Shown here: positions 4,278 through 27,851 of the stretch, piece by piece
How the letters are laid out: the number at the start of each line of letters is the position of its first letter
How positions within the stretch are numbered: position 1 is the first letter of the stretch
Position numbers and translations under genes: made by a program
Notes under the pieces: generated by a model
The model's database searches: none
What the model saw: only the letters and a program-made list of their open reading frames with translations
What the model was told of the DNA's origin: nothing
Virus record (IMG/VR): IMGVR_UViG_3300044213_000164
Span: 1-32,629 of that record
Strand: one strand, 5' to 3'
Source of the DNA: a virus
Length of the DNA stretch: 32,629 nucleotides

Positions 4278-5774
4278 TTAGAACATGAAAACAGATTGAG
4301 TTTCCGCAGCCGATTCATCCAAGGTTACTGTATATCCCCACAAATACTCGATGTGACTTAGTACTTTTGATTTATTTTTATCGCTGAGTTTGGTTTTGTT
4401 ATAAGGAGTATAAACTAATTCTAATTCCCTACTGCCTGTGAGATTGGCATTAACGATCTGTATATCGGGAGTATAATTTGATGTACTGTACTGATTGCTT
4501 AACGTTTTTCGAATACTATCGTATCCTGTTTTGTTTTGAATGCTTGACACGCTAACAAAGTTATCACTTTCGTTATTAGTAATTTCGAATAACCCCCACT
4601 CGCGAATAATCTTAGGACTCAAAAACTGCAAGATAAAACTTTCGTCACGGAAATTTCTGACTGCATCCAAACAAACATCCAACCACGGTTCATTGACAAG
4701 ATGTGGGAAATATTCCCGATCTTCGTCTGTTGGCGAGGTACATATTCTTCTGATGTCGCTGAATATAGCAAACCCCAATGCATAAGGATTAAATCCATTA
4801 TAGTATTTGCTCTTATAACTTTGCTGAGCCAATACTCCGCTGTGACTATGAATGAATTCTAAATAATTGCCGTCACTGATTTGTCCTTTTTCCCATAAAC
4901 GATTCATAATATAGTAGTGAGTAAAACTAGCCCAACCCTCATTCATTAATTTAGTTTGACGTTGAGGGTAAAAATACTGATTAATTTTTCGTACTATACG
5001 TACTACTTCACGTTGCCACCCTTCTAATACTGGGCTGTGTTTTTCAATAAAATATAGAATATTATCTTGCGGTTCTTTGGGAAATACATCGGTATCGTTC
5101 CCCTTGTCTAATATGTTAACGGTTTGAGATGGTAGTGTTGACCAAAGTACATTAGCCTGTTGTTGAACATATAATTCTCTCTCTTTTTGTTGTTCTAGTT
5201 CTCTTTTTTTACTTGGCTTTGTTGGTCTGGTATACTTATCTATTCCATAATCGCTGATAGAGTGGCAAGCGTCTAAGGTTTCTTCAACAGCCTTGCCCCC
5301 ATATTTTTCTTCACATTTTGCGATATAATTTTTAGCAAACTGTAAGTAATCTAATATGCCTTCGGCATCTGTCCATTGACGGAACAAATAATTATTCTTA
5401 AAGAAGTGATTATGACCGTATGCAGCGTGAGCAATTACCAAGGTTTGCATGGTCATGCTGTTTTCTTCCATCAGATAGCTAATACAAGGACTTGAATTAA
5501 TAACTATTTCATATGCTAGTCCCATATGTCCTTTTCTATAACTATTTTCTTGTTGTAAGAAATGTTTGCCAAAACTCCAGTGATTATACATTAACGGAAG
5601 TCCATGACTACTATATGCATCCAACATCTGATCGCTACCTATGATTTCAATTTGATTGGGGTATACATCCAACTTTAATTCGTCAAATGCAATTTTTGCA
5701 ATAGCATCTTCTACTTTTTTTAACTTTTCAAAAGACCATGAATTATCTGTATACAGTAACGTTTTTTTGCTCAT
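4278..5774 (-). CDS. spoVR: SpoVR/YcgB family protein
   Basis: A 498-residue protein, close to the roughly 510 residues of E. coli YcgB. Family features include an N-terminal helical region, YEIVINSSPCISYLMEENSM, the histidine-rich AHAAYGHNHFFKNNYLF, and NEGWASFTHYYIMNRLWEKG, all close to bacterial SpoVR. The molecular function is not settled; bacterial members are expressed in stationary phase or sporulation and are often encoded with PrkA and YeaH. The ATG overlaps the TGA of the yeaH-like gene, so translation is probably coupled. It appears intact. It is the third gene of the cassette. Confidence 0.93.
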   Translation of the reverse strand: MSKKTLLYTDNSWSFEKLKKVEDAIAKIAFDELKLDVYPNQIEIIGSDQMLDAYSSHGLPLMYNHWSFGKHFLQQENSYRKGHMGLAYEIVINSSPCISYLMEENSMTMQTLVIAHAAYGHNHFFKNNYLFRQWTDAEGILDYLQFAKNYIAKCEEKYGGKAVEETLDACHSISDYGIDKYTRPTKPSKKRELEQQKERELYVQQQANVLWSTLPSQTVNILDKGNDTDVFPKEPQDNILYFIEKHSPVLEGWQREVVRIVRKINQYFYPQRQTKLMNEGWASFTHYYIMNRLWEKGQISDGNYLEFIHSHSGVLAQQSYKSKYYNGFNPYALGFAIFSDIRRICTSPTDEDREYFPHLVNEPWLDVCLDAVRNFRDESFILQFLSPKIIREWGLFEITNNESDNFVSVSSIQNKTGYDSIRKTLSNQYSTSNYTPDIQIVNANLTGSRELELVYTPYNKTKLSDKNKSKVLSHIEYLWGYTVTLDESAAETQSVFMF

Positions 5775-7039
5775 TGTTTTGTACTTTCTTTGGCAAATAA
5801 TTCTTTAAATACAGGCCAAATGTCGGCTGGTCTGAATGCTTTTTTAATTTGTAAGGTCGGAAACATTTCTATTAAATGCTCATATAATTTCCAAATATCG
5901 GACCGTCTTAAAGAACCGTCGTAATAGTTACTATCCCTTAATTCTACATATGCAAAATATTGCACCAGTGGCAATAAACTTATCATTGCTTCGTTGCAAG
6001 GTTGATAGTCATCTCCGTAGTTATCGCCGTCGCTAGCTTGAGCTACATAGATGTTCCATTCATTTAAATTGTATCGTTCGTTAATAATTTTTTTAGTTAA
6101 TTCAATCGCGCCACTAACAACAGTACCGCCACTTTCTTTACTGTGAAAAAACTCTTGTTCGTCGCATTCTATAGCTGTTTCGTGATGTCTAATAAACACC
6201 ACTTCAACTTTTTGATATTTTCTATATAAAAACATATGCAGCAGAAAGAAGAATCTTTTGGCAAGATCCTTTTCTTTCTCTCCCATACTAGCACTGACAT
6301 CCATTATACAGAACATTACTGCTTTAGTCATGGGTTGCGGTTGCGGAACAAAGTTTCTATATCTAACATCAAACGGATCTAACCAAGGTATAGCCACTTG
6401 TCTTCTTTTTAATTCCTCGATTTGTTCGATGATTTTATTTTTTTCATCGTCGTCGACGGTTGATAATAGTTTTTCTTCTAATTCGGCAATTTCTTCATCT
6501 TTTGGTCTACATAAGCCGATTCTGCGTCCTATACTATTTTTTAAACTACGAACAATATCTAATTGACTGGGGTTTCCTTGATTGCTATAACCGGCACGTT
6601 TCATTTGCACCTTAGTTACATCTTTCATTTGTTTTTTAACAAGGTTAGGTAATTCTAAATCTTCAAATATAAAATCTAAAAATTCATCCTTACTCAAAAC
6701 AAATTCAAAATCATCTTGGCTTTCGCCTAACCCGCCTTCGGATCCTCCCGGGCCTCCCTGTTCGTTGGACTTGGCTTGTTTATCTCCTACTATGTGTTCT
6801 TTATTACCGGGCATGACATATTTTTTATCTCCGGTTTTATGATCGGTCGTAAAATGAGGTTCGTCTATGCCTTTGACTTTGACTCGTGCTTTATCTTTTT
6901 CGATGTCAGCAATATTACCATTCTTGATGGCATCTTTAACTGACTCTTTAATTTGATCTCGGGCCCGTTGGATAAACTTTTGACGATTTTTAATCGTCTT
7001 GTCTCGCGGATTTAAACGTCTATCAATTATATTAGACAT
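5771..7039 (-). CDS. yeaH: YeaH/YhbH (DUF444) family protein with VWA domain
   Basis: A 422-residue protein beginning MSNIIDRRLNPRDKTIKNRQ, near the 427 residues of E. coli YeaH. It has a basic N-terminal region, a glycine-rich linker (residues 90-105) and a von Willebrand A-like domain with a metal-binding D247-V-S-A-S251 motif. The later FHSKESGGTVVSGA is typical of the family. In bacteria it is a partner of the PrkA kinase. An AAGGAT site precedes the ATG, 11 nt after the prkA stop, and its TGA overlaps the spoVR start. All regions expected of the family are present, so it is probably functional. Confidence 0.93.
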   Translation of the reverse strand: MSNIIDRRLNPRDKTIKNRQKFIQRARDQIKESVKDAIKNGNIADIEKDKARVKVKGIDEPHFTTDHKTGDKKYVMPGNKEHIVGDKQAKSNEQGGPGGSEGGLGESQDDFEFVLSKDEFLDFIFEDLELPNLVKKQMKDVTKVQMKRAGYSNQGNPSQLDIVRSLKNSIGRRIGLCRPKDEEIAELEEKLLSTVDDDEKNKIIEQIEELKRRQVAIPWLDPFDVRYRNFVPQPQPMTKAVMFCIMDVSASMGEKEKDLAKRFFFLLHMFLYRKYQKVEVVFIRHHETAIECDEQEFFHSKESGGTVVSGAIELTKKIINERYNLNEWNIYVAQASDGDNYGDDYQPCNEAMISLLPLVQYFAYVELRDSNYYDGSLRRSDIWKLYEHLIEMFPTLQIKKAFRPADIWPVFKELFAKESTKQ

Positions 7040-7049
7040 TGGTCAATCC

Positions 7050-8993
7050 TTATGCACTTTTTCTGACACGCATATACCAATCGACCAATCGGCGTATTTG
7101 ACGTGAAGTATATCCTCTATCCTGCATTCTTGCAATAAAGTCGTTATGCTTCTTCTCGAGATCTTTATCTTTTTTGCTATCGAAACTGATGACTGGTAAT
7201 AAATCTTCAACTTGACTAAACATTTTCTTTTCAATTACATCGCGTAACACAGCGTAACTGGTCCAAACTGGATTTTTACCTTTGTTTTCTGTCTTAGCTC
7301 TTGCACGTAGACAGAAGTTGACTATCTCATTTCTGAAATCTTTTGGATTCGCAATGCCAGCCGGCTTTTCAATTTTTTCTAGTTCGTCATTTAACAAACT
7401 ACGATCCATTAACAAACCGGTATCTGGATCTTTAAATTCTTGATTCTGAATCCAAGCATCTGCATATTCAACATAACGGTCAAATAAATTTTGTCCGTAT
7501 TCACTATAACTTTCTAGATATGCTTTTTGTATTTCATTGCCTAAAAACTCTGCATATCTAGAACTTAGCTCGCTCTTGATAAAGTCTAGATATTTTTCCT
7601 CTCGTTCTTCACCCAATTGCTCACGTTTGATGGCTGTTTCTAGTACGTACATTAAATGTACAGGATCAGCGGCAATTTCTTCTGGGGTAAAATTAAATGT
7701 TTGGCTTAAGATTTTATAAGCGAAACGAGTAGAAATGCCATCCATTCCTTCATCCACTCCGGCAACATCTTTATATTCTTGTATACTTTTAGCTCTGGGA
7801 TCTTGCTCCCGAATATTCTCACCATTATATACACGTAGTTTACTAAATGGAGTTGAATTTTCGTGATCTCGTAATCTTGTCAACACACTAAACTGTGCTA
7901 ACATTTCAATGGTTTGTGGTGCACACGGTGCAGTACCTAAACCAGATCCACTGATCATCTTTTCATATATTTTCTTTTCTTCGTCAACACGTAAGCAATA
8001 TGGAACTTTAATAACACAAATACGATCTAAGAAAGCCTCATTATTTTTGTTATTTCTAAAAGTCTGCCATTCGCTTTCGTTGCTGTGGGCTAATACGATT
8101 CCTTGGAACGGTATAGCACTAATTGCCTCAGTACCAACATAGTTACCTTCTTGAGTGGCGGTAAGCAATGGATGTAAAACTTTAATAGGAGCCTTGAACA
8201 TTTCAACGAACTCTAATAGACCTTGATTAGAACGACACAGGCCACCACTATAACTATAAGCATCAGTATCATTCTGACTGAATTTTTCTAATTTGCGAAT
8301 ATCTACTTTACCTACTAAAGTTGAGATATCTTGATTGTTTTCATCACCCGGTTCTGTTTTCATAACAGCAATCTGTTCTAATTTACTAGGTTGTAAACGA
8401 ACAACTCTGAATCTGGTTAAGTCGCCGCCGAATTCTTTTAATCTCTTGATAGCCCACGGACTTAATATGGTGTTTAAATATCTTTTATTAATACCATAAT
8501 CATTTTCTAAAACATCAAAGTATTGTGGATTAGAAAAAAGCCCCAGTGGGCTTTCGAATACTGGGCTGATTTCCCCCGACTCTGAAGCCAAGGCATAAAT
8601 CGGATTAATTTCCATTAGTTCCTTAAGGCGTTCTGCCAAACTTGATTTACCACCGCCCACTGGGCCCAATAAGTATAGTACCTGTTTACGTTCTTCTAAT
8701 CCCTGTGCAGCGTGCTTGAAATAACCAACAATGCGTTCTACTGCATCTTCCATACCGTAAAATTCCTTGAAAGCTGGATAAATTCGCAATGTTCTATTAG
8801 AAAATATTCTGCTTAATCTTAAATCTTTACTAGTATCGATTAATTCCGGCTCCCCGATTGCAGAGACCATTCTCTCCGCCGCAGTAGCATAAATCATTGG
8901 ATCTTGTTTACATAAATCTAAATATTCGTCGATTGTTAAAGTTTTAAACACATTTTTATCGAAGTTTTCTTTGAAAAGTGATACGATTGACAT
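7050..8993 (-). CDS. prkA: PrkA family serine protein kinase / AAA+ protein
   Basis: A 647-residue protein, essentially full length against E. coli YeaG/PrkA (644). Walker A is LLGPVGGGKSSLAERLK (G110 to S118). Family blocks include ATAAERMVSAIGEP, RLSRIFSNR, FYGMEDAVERIVGYFKHAAQ and VLAHSNESEWQTF. The start at 8993 was chosen over a frame six codons longer because AGGAGG lies 5 nt upstream of this ATG and the N-terminus then matches bacterial PrkA. The family is described as a kinase and as an AAA+ protein in starvation responses. It is the first gene of a prkA-yeaH-spoVR operon with a late-type octamer about 20 bp upstream. Confidence 0.95.
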   Translation of the reverse strand: MSIVSLFKENFDKNVFKTLTIDEYLDLCKQDPMIYATAAERMVSAIGEPELIDTSKDLRLSRIFSNRTLRIYPAFKEFYGMEDAVERIVGYFKHAAQGLEERKQVLYLLGPVGGGKSSLAERLKELMEINPIYALASESGEISPVFESPLGLFSNPQYFDVLENDYGINKRYLNTILSPWAIKRLKEFGGDLTRFRVVRLQPSKLEQIAVMKTEPGDENNQDISTLVGKVDIRKLEKFSQNDTDAYSYSGGLCRSNQGLLEFVEMFKAPIKVLHPLLTATQEGNYVGTEAISAIPFQGIVLAHSNESEWQTFRNNKNNEAFLDRICVIKVPYCLRVDEEKKIYEKMISGSGLGTAPCAPQTIEMLAQFSVLTRLRDHENSTPFSKLRVYNGENIREQDPRAKSIQEYKDVAGVDEGMDGISTRFAYKILSQTFNFTPEEIAADPVHLMYVLETAIKREQLGEEREEKYLDFIKSELSSRYAEFLGNEIQKAYLESYSEYGQNLFDRYVEYADAWIQNQEFKDPDTGLLMDRSLLNDELEKIEKPAGIANPKDFRNEIVNFCLRARAKTENKGKNPVWTSYAVLRDVIEKKMFSQVEDLLPVISFDSKKDKDLEKKHNDFIARMQDRGYTSRQIRRLVDWYMRVRKSA

Positions 8994-9013
8994 TAAGCCT
9001 CCTATGTTCATAA

Positions 9014-9077: not shown

Positions 9078-9434
9078 ATGTCTGCATATTGGGGATATCA
9101 TTTAATGCTAGATTGTTCAGGCTGTGAACAAATAGATAGTAAAGATAATATATATAATTTTATTAAAGATATGGTACCCAGAATAGGTATGCAGGCACAC
9201 GGTGAACCTATAATAGAATATTTGTTGCCGGGGGATCCTAAACAAGGATACAGTTTAATGCAGTTGATTACTACTAGTAATATTTGCGGGCACTTTATGG
9301 AATTAGATGGTACTGCATACTTTGATATATTCAGTTGCAAAGAGTTTGAAATAGATCTAGCTAAACAAATTATTGTAGAATATTTTAATCCTAAAAAAAT
9401 GAGAGTCAATTATATTACTAGACACGCAGATTAA
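9078..9434 (+). CDS. speD: S-adenosylmethionine decarboxylase-like protein
   Basis: A 118-residue protein, the size of prokaryotic AdoMetDC proenzymes, starting MSAYWGYHLMLDCSGCEQID. Family landmarks are the WGYHLMLDCSGC strand, YSLMQLITTSNICGHFMEL and AYFDIFSCKEF. S67 would be the self-cleavage serine that becomes the pyruvoyl cofactor; H72 and C87 match the catalytic histidine and cysteine by spacing (S+5 and the DxFSC position). The residue before the serine is Thr where cellular enzymes usually have Glu. It would supply decarboxylated AdoMet for spermidine synthesis. It is the only clear plus-strand gene, with its own late promoter and AAGGAA ribosome site. Confidence 0.82.
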   Translation: MSAYWGYHLMLDCSGCEQIDSKDNIYNFIKDMVPRIGMQAHGEPIIEYLLPGDPKQGYSLMQLITTSNICGHFMELDGTAYFDIFSCKEFEIDLAKQIIVEYFNPKKMRVNYITRHAD

Positions 9435-12012: not shown

Positions 12013-12087
12013 TGGTGCGCTAGACAGGAATCGAACCTGCTCTCTGGAGTTTTAGAAGCTCTTGCTATACCATTTAGCTTCTAGCGC
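12013..12087 (-). tRNA. tRNA with apparent CTA anticodon (candidate amber suppressor)
   Basis: A 75-nt cloverleaf with encoded CCA. The acceptor stem is a perfect 7 bp (GCGCTAG with CTAGCGC), the D-stem 4 bp (GCTA/TAGC) with AATGGTA loop, and the T-arm GCAGG-TTCGATT-CCTGT. Counting from both ends places the anticodon loop as TTCTAAA, giving anticodon CTA at 12053-12055, which reads UAG. Oddities: position 8 is A where U is expected, and the anticodon stem has only three clean pairs (28-42, 29-41, 30-40) with A-C mismatches at 27-43 and 31-39. A one-base shift would give TCT (Arg) but with a worse stem and no position 26. Confidence 0.8.
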
Positions 12088-15639: not shown

Positions 15640-15664
15640 AAAAAAGTAGGGACCGAAGTCCCTA
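15640..15664 (-). terminator. Rho-independent terminator of the tmRNA gene
   Basis: Minus-strand stem TAGGGAC, UUCG tetraloop, GTCCCTA, then C and TTTTT. It follows the coding piece of the permuted tmRNA at the expected place. Confidence 0.9.
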
Positions 15665-15965
15665 TTACTATTTTTGGTTACAAGGCATAGTTGCCCCGGA
15701 GATTACGCCGCTAGGGCAAATACCTCATCGTTAGATGCGTTAGCATTTACTTTATTTGCTTCTTCGGCCGAGTTCTCCCAACCCTAACGGCTTCTACATT
15801 GCCGAGTAGATCTTGTCAATACTTGTTGCCCTGTCGAAACCTTTCATCCCCATCAAATAGATATTGGAACCGTTTACATTCCAATTTTATGGTGTTTAGC
15901 TCTTAAGCATCTATTTGGTGGAGATGTCGGCATACGATAGCCGAGTCCAGAACTTCTTTCTATTT
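15665..15965 (-). ncRNA. ssrA: Circularly permuted (two-piece) tmRNA
   Basis: Transfer-messenger RNA, rescues stalled ribosomes and tags the peptide. Read on the minus strand, the acceptor piece comes first: T-stem TCGGC/GCCGA, then CATCTCC-A-CCA (15916-15926). A 64-nt linker (15852-15915) follows, then the coding piece starting GGGGATGAAAGGTTTCGACA at 15851. GGGGATG pairs with CATCTCC over 7 bp, including the G3-U70 pair that specifies alanine. The tag frame begins at GCA 15759 and encodes ANKVNANASNDEVFALAA, TAA at 15703-15705, ending in the usual ALAA. CAGGGC (15828-15833) can pair with GTTCTG (15948-15953) as the start of helix P2. The T-loop is 8 nt (TATCGTAT), unusual. The linker arms AAATAGAT/ATCTATTT extend the acceptor helix. 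The outer 5' boundary is approximate. Confidence 0.9.
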
Positions 15966-15970
15966 AAGCC

Positions 15971-16729
15971 TTAAACTACTATTCTGTTTTGTGGCATACT
16001 TTGTTTAAGCCTACCACTACTAAACCCTTTAAGTTTATACTCTTGTTCTTTTTCTAACAAGATGTAATGTTCCTTTATACCATTATTTACCCAACATTTG
16101 GTAATAGTATGCCCTTTCTTACCTCGGACCCACCCATCTGGTATACTGTCATTTATTGTAATGCGTTTCACTTCTTTAGTCAATATATTTGAAATCCAGA
16201 TTCGGCCAAATTGAGAATTATTCTCTCCCTGGCTGTGTTTACGCTTGTTAAAAGTTTCTTTGCGTTTTGCAATAGCATCAGGATCTTTGGCTCGCTCATT
16301 CATGAGTTTCATATGCTCAGGTGAACGAGTCCAATCATATTGCTTTTGCCACTCTGGATCCTTAAATGGATTATCGTCCCGTCTGGATCGTTTTTGTCCG
16401 CCACGCCTAGAATTTTCACTATGCTGTTCACTACCATTGTAGTGGTCCCACCCGCCGTTGCCGCCTTTGTGCATATTGTAGGTATCTTTACGCTTTACAA
16501 AGTCCTCTGTTACTATACTCAACTCTTTTTCGGCCATTTCTTCCTTTGAGTTGCAGTAGTGCAAAACTTCTTTCTTGAAGTTTTCTATACCATACTTTGC
16601 TATTGCAGATTTGATTTGCTTACCTGAACCGTAGTAGCCATTTTCTGCAGGTGGTAATGTGGACTTATGCTTGCCCACATATATTTTATTATTCAGGAGG
16701 TTAGTAATTTGATAGACATAAAAATACAT
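15971..16729 (-). CDS. GIY-YIG homing endonuclease
   Basis: About 252 residues. The N-terminal GIY-YIG domain has YFYVYQITNLLNNKIYVGKH and a following YGSGKQIKSAIAKYGIENF. The middle is a basic, repeat-like region (SRRGGQKRSRRDD, AIAKRKETFNKRKHSQGENN) of NUMOD3 type, and the end has two ISN/WVNNG-type DNA-binding segments (RIWISNILTKEVKRI and CWVNNGIKEHYIL). The ATG at 16729 is preferred to one four codons upstream because AAAGGA is only 2 nt from the upstream ATG and about 10 nt from this one. It ends just upstream of the tmRNA acceptor piece. Confidence 0.85.
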   Translation of the reverse strand: MYFYVYQITNLLNNKIYVGKHKSTLPPAENGYYGSGKQIKSAIAKYGIENFKKEVLHYCNSKEEMAEKELSIVTEDFVKRKDTYNMHKGGNGGWDHYNGSEQHSENSRRGGQKRSRRDDNPFKDPEWQKQYDWTRSPEHMKLMNERAKDPDAIAKRKETFNKRKHSQGENNSQFGRIWISNILTKEVKRITINDSIPDGWVRGKKGHTITKCWVNNGIKEHYILLEKEQEYKLKGFSSGRLKQSMPQNRIVV

Positions 16730-16787
16730 AAATGTATTCATCCTTTGCGTCCAGAATCCATTTCTTAATAACAGTTATACGCTGTTC

Positions 16788-25559: not shown

Positions 25560-27851
25560 TTATCCCCAGACCGGAACAACTTCGTAGCCTTCGCCACTCA
25601 CACCGTATCCGTTGTTTCTCAACCATTCAGAAGCAATTCTGTTGGCGTCGCCTTGGTTGTTGCCTATGCCAGCGAACTGGTGGACTTCTCTGCCATCGGG
25701 TAATACAATCTTCCAGCCTCTTAGTTCGCGTTGTGCGTTTGGCTGTTGCGGTCTTCCTTGATCGGGGACTACTTCGATTTCGCTCATATCAGCATCCTCG
25801 GTGCCACGTTCTCTCAACCATTGCACAGCTAAATTACCAGCTGCTTGTACGTTGTAAACCCCGCCGAAACGATGTAGAATTTGTCCTGTATTAGAATCTT
25901 TTATTAACCAATTGCCTGTGATTCGGTCGCTGGTGTTTTGATCACCTGTCGGTGCTTGTGGGGACAAGTCGGTCGGTACCTGCTGACCGGCAACACGACG
26001 AAGACCAAGTTGACTTCTGGCAATTCCGGCACTAGCCGCCATTGAATCTCTATACCTGTTGCCAATTTCTAAGGCCATTTGATCATCGGCGGCCCAGAAT
26101 GTTCTATATGCTGTATCGGTTTGCCTATTGTATAATTCGTATTGTATACTGCCTGGTCGGCCGCCTGGACGTGGTTCGCCTGCTGTGGCCGTAACAGGTG
26201 CAGTACTATATGGACGAATAGGTCTAGCAGTGGCCGCAGGCATATGTTTTGGACTATCTAAACCAAATTCGGTAGCTGCTTTAGCCAATGCTTCTTCTTT
26301 AGTTTTAGCAACAACTTCGACGCCAGGACCATTACTGGCGCCTTCACCATCACGCCATACTTCCCACCAATAATCTGCTTGGCCACCGGTCTTACCTGCT
26401 TTGATGTTACGCTCTAACTGTGCTTGTTTAATAAAACTTTTTAGTGCGACTCGGGGCATTTTACCTGCCACATAGTCGGCAAAAAATCCGATAGTATCTT
26501 TACTACCATCGGTTTTAGCACCTAGTAGTTTGTATAATTTTTTTAAATATTCTTCACGATATTTTACTGGATCGACTGCCGCATCGAGTGCAACCACAAA
26601 TCTTAATAATGTATTTTTAATCTTAACAGGATCATGTTGCAAATCTGCTAACCAATTGCCACCCGGACTTCTAAATTCTATGTAACCGTCTTTAACGTTA
26701 ATACTGGTATACTTGCTAGTAACGCCAGAATGAATAATTTTAGTAGCAGCATCAGCCAAATGAGTTTTCATTTGTTTTAACAATGCCACTACGTTTTCGG
26801 GATTGTCTGTTACTTGTCGACGAAGTTTTTCCATGGCGCTAGCTGTGTATGTATTACCGAGACGACCAAATTGTTTCAATACATATTCGTCGCCTAACAA
26901 TAATGCTAATTTGACATAATCTAATTTTTCTAAATTCCCGGACCAAGATGGTACACTGACATTCATATGTAACCCTGTCGACGTATTTGTGTAACACCCA
27001 CGTCTTTTTGCCCACGTGCGTATGAGACCTAAATCATCAAACATTTCACTGACTGACATCGGGGGACTAATAAATTCGATACCGGCCTCGTCATCGTCGT
27101 CGGTATTGATACTTCCATCGGGTTCAACACTATATGCATCTTCGCTGCGTTCAGCGCCGTGATAGTTAGTGCTCCAATGTACAGGTTTTCCAATGGCATT
27201 TTCAAATTCGTCTGCTATTCCTTCTATATCGGCATCGCCGCCGCCCGAAGACCAAATTGGCCAGGTAATACTAAAAGAGTTTGCAATATCACTCATATGG
27301 GGATAGTTGCGACGTAACCAATCGTATTCATCTAATCGATTTCGCTCGTCTTCAAGAAATTCTTCTCTTGCTTCCTCATATGTATTGTTGGTTGACTCTA
27401 TACACTGATCAGTATATGCACCCCAATCATCCTTAGTGATTTCGTGATCGTCATCTAAATTTAGTTCGCTGCGTACCTCATCGTCGCTGACATTATTAAC
27501 AGCCCATTCGTATACTTGGTCAACTACGTTATTATTCCACTTGTCCTCTAATTCTTCATTGGCCCACGAATAAAATTCTTCTTGCATATTTGCTATTAGA
27601 TTACGAACTTCACGGGTACTATTCATGTCCTGATCGAAGAATTCTTCAATTACTCCCCAACTTGTAGCAGGTTCGTCATAATCATAATCGGGTTCTGGCT
27701 CCGTATCAGTAGTAATACCAGGCACCACCATTTCAAATTCCATACCTGCACGTGCATCAATTTGATTAGCCAACTTTTGCAAGTTGCCGGGACTCATATT
27801 GACTTCAAATAATTCTGATTCTTCTATTGTTTTTATATCGTTAAATCGCAT
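25560..27851 (-). CDS. Amidoligase-type protein with C-terminal repeat modules
   Basis: 763 residues. The N-terminus MRFNDIKTIEESELFEVNM resembles a capsid-targeting leader. RAGMEFEMVVPG (residues 35-46), AGIEFISPPMSVSEMFDD, TGLHMNVSVPSW and IEFRSPGGNW match the amidoligase (COOH-NH2 ligase) family seen in large phages. The C-terminal 250 residues hold imperfect repeats of a small module with WEVW, YELY, WLIK or WKIV strands followed by helices ending in WLRERG or WLRNNG. Substrate unknown. A late-like octamer lies upstream and the HD gene follows after 1 nt. Confidence 0.75.
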   Translation of the reverse strand: MRFNDIKTIEESELFEVNMSPGNLQKLANQIDARAGMEFEMVVPGITTDTEPEPDYDYDEPATSWGVIEEFFDQDMNSTREVRNLIANMQEEFYSWANEELEDKWNNNVVDQVYEWAVNNVSDDEVRSELNLDDDHEITKDDWGAYTDQCIESTNNTYEEAREEFLEDERNRLDEYDWLRRNYPHMSDIANSFSITWPIWSSGGGDADIEGIADEFENAIGKPVHWSTNYHGAERSEDAYSVEPDGSINTDDDDEAGIEFISPPMSVSEMFDDLGLIRTWAKRRGCYTNTSTGLHMNVSVPSWSGNLEKLDYVKLALLLGDEYVLKQFGRLGNTYTASAMEKLRRQVTDNPENVVALLKQMKTHLADAATKIIHSGVTSKYTSINVKDGYIEFRSPGGNWLADLQHDPVKIKNTLLRFVVALDAAVDPVKYREEYLKKLYKLLGAKTDGSKDTIGFFADYVAGKMPRVALKSFIKQAQLERNIKAGKTGGQADYWWEVWRDGEGASNGPGVEVVAKTKEEALAKAATEFGLDSPKHMPAATARPIRPYSTAPVTATAGEPRPGGRPGSIQYELYNRQTDTAYRTFWAADDQMALEIGNRYRDSMAASAGIARSQLGLRRVAGQQVPTDLSPQAPTGDQNTSDRITGNWLIKDSNTGQILHRFGGVYNVQAAGNLAVQWLRERGTEDADMSEIEVVPDQGRPQQPNAQRELRGWKIVLPDGREVHQFAGIGNNQGDANRIASEWLRNNGYGVSGEGYEVVPVWG

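Follow-up and report, generated by a model that had tools for sequence, protein, structure and literature searches.

A phage-encoded permuted tmRNA gene with a recurrent variant elbow

A permuted, two-piece tmRNA gene with an unusual elbow lies on the minus strand of the window, which is the whole 32,629-base IMG/VR virus record IMGVR_UViG_3300044213_000164, classed as linear. The gene is a genuine member of the permuted tmRNA family. We explain it with good confidence as a functional two-piece tmRNA that is encoded by the phage and belongs to the permuted type of betaproteobacteria, with a distinct elbow variant. Anatomy, covariation and distribution were observed, and we infer the processing, charging, use of SmpB, tagging, numbering of the loop and the reason why the variant was kept. 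Taken on its own, escape from host factors as the purpose of the elbow is a guess, put forward tentatively.

Few motifs of tRNA are as strongly conserved as the T-loop. A recurrent, almost phage-only elbow in which both loops are altered constitutes a natural experiment on the requirements of the elbow, and it suggests that phages and hosts contend over tmRNA. Phage two-piece tmRNA is already known: 53 were reported among 18,146 phage genomes, with that of phage Melnitz described (PMC9004378), a set of 79 phage tmRNA sequences covers all forms (PMC11915505), and tmRNAs occur in huge phages (PMC7162821). The novelty is the elbow variant. No mention of its loop class, U-N-U-C-R-N'-A-K, was found in the literature searched, and an earlier description is possible.

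Anatomy of the permuted tmRNA gene

The Rfam covariance model RF04321 (tmRNA_permuted) matched the window at 15980-15703 (-) over its full length (model 1-213 of 213) with 89.4 bits and E 3.8e-16, against a gathering cut-off of 47 bits. A tmRNA hit far above the cut-off was thus returned for what the first-pass annotation had read from the letters as a phage-borne permuted tmRNA, and its closest relative resembles it in tmRNA type and in the adjoining operon and also encodes a terminase. The beta_tmRNA model RF01850 also aligned at full length in a 531-base search, with E 1e-24 and 80.5 bits against a cut-off of 84. ARAGORN reported no tmRNA in the window, its sole find being a tRNA with a CTA anticodon.

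The architecture proposed in the first-pass annotation was borne out in nearly all parts (Table 1). The piece ending in the encoded CCA precedes the piece beginning with GGGGATG, and a 64-nt linker separates them. The 7-bp acceptor stem with G3-U70 is read directly from the sequence, GGGGATG against CATCTCC. When the pieces are folded together, T-stem, acceptor stem and spacer arms all form in the precursor, whose fold reaches z -4.30 versus shuffles, with 0 shuffles equally good; the spacer alone gives -11.2 kcal/mol and z -2.15. The linker arms do continue the acceptor helix in this fold and are also visible as an 18-nt inverted repeat. The P2 helix across both pieces, which had been suggested as a possible pairing, recurs among the 11 permuted genes of this loop class, where 92% of its cells are paired versus 79% with shuffled partners; this share exceeds that of 500 of 500 shuffles, and sliding the strands lowers pairing to 39-50%. 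The D-loop is of the stemless SmpB type with the conserved GG and UUCGAC, and the predicted UUCG terminator was found downstream.

Table 1. Features of the permuted tmRNA locus in the window
Feature	Positions	Strand	Basis or remark
tmRNA acceptor piece, transcribed first: P2 strand, GGAC, T-arm, acceptor 3' strand CATCTCC, ACCA	15916..15980	-	RF04321 match begins at 15980; precursor 5' end putative
8-nt T-loop UAUCGUAU, closed by C-G (53-61): the variant elbow	15932..15939	-	
64-nt intervening spacer, removal expected; arms AATAGAT/ATCTATT lengthen the acceptor helix	15852..15915	-	folds, inverted repeat
Acceptor 5' strand GGGGATG, partner 15926-15920, including G3-U70	15845..15851	-	sequence
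D-loop AAAGGTT-TCGA, 7 nt ahead of TCGA; one shorter than in most other-loop relatives	15834..15844	-	
P2 5' strand CAGGGC; partner GTTCTG at 15953-15948 in the other piece	15828..15833	-	
Tag frame ANASNDEVFALAA and TAA	15703..15744	-	resume codon by homology
Intrinsic terminator: UUCG hairpin with a T run after it	15647..15664	-	
GIY-YIG homing endonuclease gene immediately upstream; its span overlaps the start of the Rfam match	15971..16741	-	

In the proposed pathway, a single precursor would be transcribed leftward as far as the UUCG terminator, and cleavage by RNase P and 3' processing is expected at 15851 and 15916. The two pieces would then be held together by the 7-bp acceptor stem and P2, and alanine would be charged by way of G3-U70. 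The charged RNA would bind host SmpB through the elbow, enter stalled ribosomes and append ANASNDEVFALAA. Charging, SmpB binding and ribosome rescue are expected here by analogy with established tmRNA biology (PMC3968760).

Relatives and the Rfam consensus alike take up the frame again at the GC of UAAAUGC-AAACGA, to which UAAAUGC-UAACGC is the homologous site in the window. By this homologous resume codon the tag of the window is ANASNDEVFALAA, with 13 residues at 15744-15706. The 18-residue tag ANKVNANASNDEVFALAA read from 15759 in the first-pass annotation is probably wrong: its TAA stands, but its start lies five codons too early by the Rfam alignment and by relatives. The tag frame is open and has the hydrophobic end LAA before its TAA stop. 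These features bear on the proposal that the phage RNA acts as a decoy or inhibitor, occupying host SmpB or ribosomes without proper rescue, comparable to the TLD-only RNA of mycobacteriophage DS6A, for which such a role was proposed (PMC4131195, PMC11915505). The elbow is indeed the place of SmpB binding and is altered here, and a TLD-like molecule inhibits tmRNA (PMC4131195, PMC11915505); a decoy, however, would need neither an open tag frame with a normal end and stop nor the message domain, P2 and terminator that are all retained, and this role is very improbable.

The spacers of many permuted phage tmRNA genes hold a short open reading frame that has a Shine-Dalgarno-like site right after the CCA and ends close to, or within, the following piece (seen in L284, L285, L301, L315, L303, L100/L104, L138, L270, L273 and L361). 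A similar spacer protein of 43-47 residues (MNWDWHWISW...) is common to four contigs, and other spacer proteins look membrane-like. Spacers of ~230 nt in L103 and L109 are filled by open frames whose TGA stop enters the acceptor 5' strand (TGATGGG...), and in the cultured jumbo Sinorhizobium phage Phosso (PV764938.1, 349596-350198) a spacer of ~400 nt separates the two pieces of a permuted tmRNA, at which locus ARAGORN reported nothing. T-arm-like hairpins in the spacers of L110 and L111/L112, GAGGTTCGATTCCTC and ACAGGTTCAAATCCTGT, are possibly tRNA remnants; an Rfam tRNA match is absent there.

The variant elbow

The most unusual part of the gene is its T-loop, whose odd length of 8 nt had been noticed at first reading and was confirmed as UAUCGUAU. 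This loop is unlike the usual 7-nt UUCRANY closed by G53-C61, yet the gene passes RF04321; the usual loop is not definitional, as many Rfam-positive phage tmRNA genes carry GGCRGUR. A wider scan with the loop letters left free yielded the class U-N-U-C-R-N'-A-K, closed by a pyrimidine-purine pair, and gives a lower bound on the size of the class. In the 29 distinct variant genes listed, of which 24 were drawn from a search with loop letters fixed, positions 2 and 6 of the loop are A-U, C-G or U-A in every case, with 0 mismatches. In the same 29 listed genes the T-stem is paired throughout and covaries at four of its five pairs. The covariation score was 0.343, compared with 0.101 after shuffling and no more than 0.092 after sliding, in a set for which the five T-stem pairs and the acceptor stem served as selection filters. 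The loop is closed by C-G or U-A in all 11 variant acceptors examined, whereas 108 of 109 others have G-C there.

In our interpretation of these letters, loop positions 2 and 6 would form a covarying pair in the place of U54-A58, with an extra U ahead of it after position 53, the closing pair 53-61 inverted to C-G, and UCR retained at 55-57. In tRNA, U55 and C56 touch G18 and G19, and R57 stacks between them (PMC7912444).

The D-loop is altered as well. It measures 7 nt in all 20 genes carrying the exact loop, a count of 9 in L157 being left out as a false match in a truncated contig, versus 8 nt in 45 of the 48 permuted genes with GGCRGUR loops and mostly 8 or 9 in UUC genes; between variant and UUC genes the difference has a Fisher p of about 1e-13 with relatedness ignored. 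When aligned with the closest other-loop relative, the variant D-loop was shorter in five pairs and equal in two pairs with L121. The lengths of the T-loop and D-loop thus change together. The retained UCR and GG letters suggest that the two loops still dock, probably on each other in an altered fold.

A second class of 8-nt T-loops, closed by G-C and usually accompanied by a D-loop of 8, emerged from a general scan for 8-nt loops and is distinct from the U-N-U-C-R-N'-A-K class. It comprises L523-L584 (e.g., L526, L533 and L558), with the loops AGTCGGAG, AGGCAGAG, CTTCGATG and others, in both gene forms.

Distribution of the exact loop

The pattern GGAC-N5-TATCGTAT-N5-CANCTCCACCA was found in 34 IMG/VR viral contigs and in 1 contig among 84,980 bacterial and archaeal species genomes. 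Since endolysin, exonuclease and endonuclease VII-like genes are present on that lone contig, it is most likely phage DNA inside a MAG. As a control for the reach of the pattern, its canonical version matched 19 of 148 Bacteroidota genomes. The variant elbow is almost phage-only. Among the 35 exact-loop records, 18 pass the one-piece model RF00023 and 12 others pass the permuted model, with which reading of the sequences concurs; the two gene forms thus have this loop in common. Three one-piece variant genes, L128, L129 and L130, have tags of 35, 45 and 32 residues by their putative resume codons, versus the usual ~10.

When two variant acceptor sequences were compared by BLAST with 50,697 named phage records, no full-length exact match was found; one of the queries retrieved canonical tmRNAs of Stenotrophomonas phages at 85% identity, and a DNA search of named phages with the window gene gave chance matches only. 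None of 94 tRNAs in the same loci carries the variant loop, which makes the elbow change tmRNA-specific. ARAGORN detected 0 of 35 variant genes, compared with 84 of 97 UUC genes and 51 of 75 GGC genes; since it lies behind the published phage counts, phage tmRNA is undercounted.

The failure of ARAGORN to see the window gene, together with a bit score below that of many relatives, could be taken as a sign of a decaying tmRNA gene in which the 8-nt T-loop is a chance lesion. The recurrence of the loop in 34 viral contigs with compensated stems, its retention in the closest relative and the open tag speak against decay, which is the least probable of the readings considered.

Phage context and host

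The genes of the window match phage families, including ligase, homing endonucleases, endolysin and nuclease. A block of SpoVR, DUF444 (YeaH) and PrkA (YeaG) at 4278-9011 (-) is kept in related phage contigs, and through PrkA the closest relative was identified as G001, which is 86% identical in PrkA and has the same operon, CTA tRNA and tmRNA loop. This relative keeps the loop unchanged despite altered stem letters, and its terminase is ~50% identical to those of jumbo phages, e.g., PA5oct and Phosso. A terminase candidate in G061 turned out to be PhoH-like. Permuted tmRNA was scored above the cut-off in 20 of 50 related phage records, several of them >300 kb, and none was seen in four uncultured huge-phage records with related PrkA genes. 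PrkA was also found in uncultured phages >600 kb. An SmpB gene was found in 0 of 35 related records, by which the phage tmRNA depends on host SmpB.

Elsewhere in the window, an S-adenosylmethionine decarboxylase-like gene at 9078-9434 (+) is the only gene in its surroundings seen clearly on the plus strand, and the gene at 25560-27851 (-) encodes a protein of 763 residues that weakly matches amidoligase. The CTA-anticodon tRNA, called tRNA-Pyl by ARAGORN, lies at 12013-12087 (-) and is kept in the closest relative (L145, 2344-2418 (-)). It is a possible amber suppressor, and TAG stops are rare in the window. Recoding of TAG was set aside, as the main genes are open under table 11 and a few TAG stops do occur.

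Stenotrophomonas is expected to have a one-piece tmRNA, and permuted tmRNA genes are present in its phages of the genus Menderavirus. A host lineage with two-piece tmRNA, at which the first-pass annotation had hinted, is therefore only weakly indicated by the phage gene; likewise, the tmRNA of Melnitz belongs to a lineage other than that of its host (PMC9004378).

Origin and purpose of the elbow

The message-like domain closest to that of the window gene belongs to L254, a permuted gene with another loop, and for most permuted variant genes the nearest message-like domain is again that of an other-loop permuted gene (L131-L204, L147-L215, L138-L224 and L136-L306). One-piece variants have a message-like domain unlike that of permuted variants. 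Permuted and one-piece variant loci show eight single-gene pairs at 27-44% identity, and gene sharing is otherwise absent, which speaks against common descent of all phages with the loop. Different kin of the message domain and near-absent gene sharing indicate that the elbow was exchanged as a module or arose repeatedly. Identical letters would favour module exchange; recurrence would be compatible with the loop variants.

Specific contacts of the T-loop and D-loop are required for SmpB binding by tmRNA (PMC3968760). The enzymes that make m5U54, and TruB, which makes pseudouridine 55, were described as needing a 5-bp stem and a seven-membered loop (PMC7912444). The phage RNA is therefore likely to escape these enzymes, and perhaps also nucleases or integrases by which the canonical arm is recognised. 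The variant elbow would then be retained since the phage RNA is thereby freed from host factors reading the canonical T-arm. The broader proposal, that a phage-restricted elbow passes as a module from one tmRNA gene to another, permuted or one-piece, among unrelated phages because a rescue RNA carrying it evades host T-arm enzymes or nucleases, is possible but held with reserve.

The same working tmRNA could instead carry the elbow as a DNA allele that resists homing endonucleases or island integrases reading the canonical T-arm and that spreads by gene conversion. Immediately upstream of the tmRNA, the window and L114 each carry a GIY-YIG gene, and an endonuclease VII/HNH-like gene adjoins the tmRNA in L161; moreover, elbow and message domain have different nearest relatives, as expected from gene conversion, and genomic islands, which use the tmRNA 3' end as their attachment site, travel on a jumbo phage (PMC12595487). 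Of the 32 genes found upstream of variant tmRNAs, however, only a minority match families of homing or HNH endonucleases, and such genes also adjoin other tmRNAs. The D-loop, which lies elsewhere in the gene, changes too, and the loop covaries, both pointing to RNA function. Resistance at the DNA level is unlikely. Homing-endonuclease linkage as the sole cause was discarded, with no clear enrichment beside variant genes. As the purpose of the elbow, escape from host factors ranks ahead of DNA-level resistance, and decoy or decay are given little weight.

Comparison with known tmRNAs

Methylophage Melnitz, phage Mosig and other marine phages (PMC9004378) resemble the window in encoding a permuted tmRNA; in the window, no smpB was seen beside it. 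Their set was found with ARAGORN (PMC9004378), which detects 0 of 35 genes with the loop of the window, and the Melnitz gene is of the alphaproteobacterial type with a glutamine riboswitch, unlike the window gene. The one-piece phage tmRNAs L144 and L128 (RF00023) are near-identical in letters to the window in the tRNA-like part and likewise have a D-loop of 7 nt, but they differ in an unpermuted gene, an unrelated message domain and very few neighbouring genes in common. L254, a permuted phage tmRNA of the beta type from IMG/VR that scores 95 bits to RF01850, has the message-like domain nearest to that of the window gene among those compared and departs from it in its TTCGATT loop, G53-C61 and 8-nt D-loop, so that the elbow differs and the rest is alike. 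The permuted tmRNAs of RF04321 and its betaproteobacterial subtype RF01850 have the piece order, CCA, G3-U70, D-loop motif, P2 and tagged message domain in common with the window, and the window gene departs from them in its 8-nt UAUCGUAU T-loop, C53-G61 and 7-nt D-loop.
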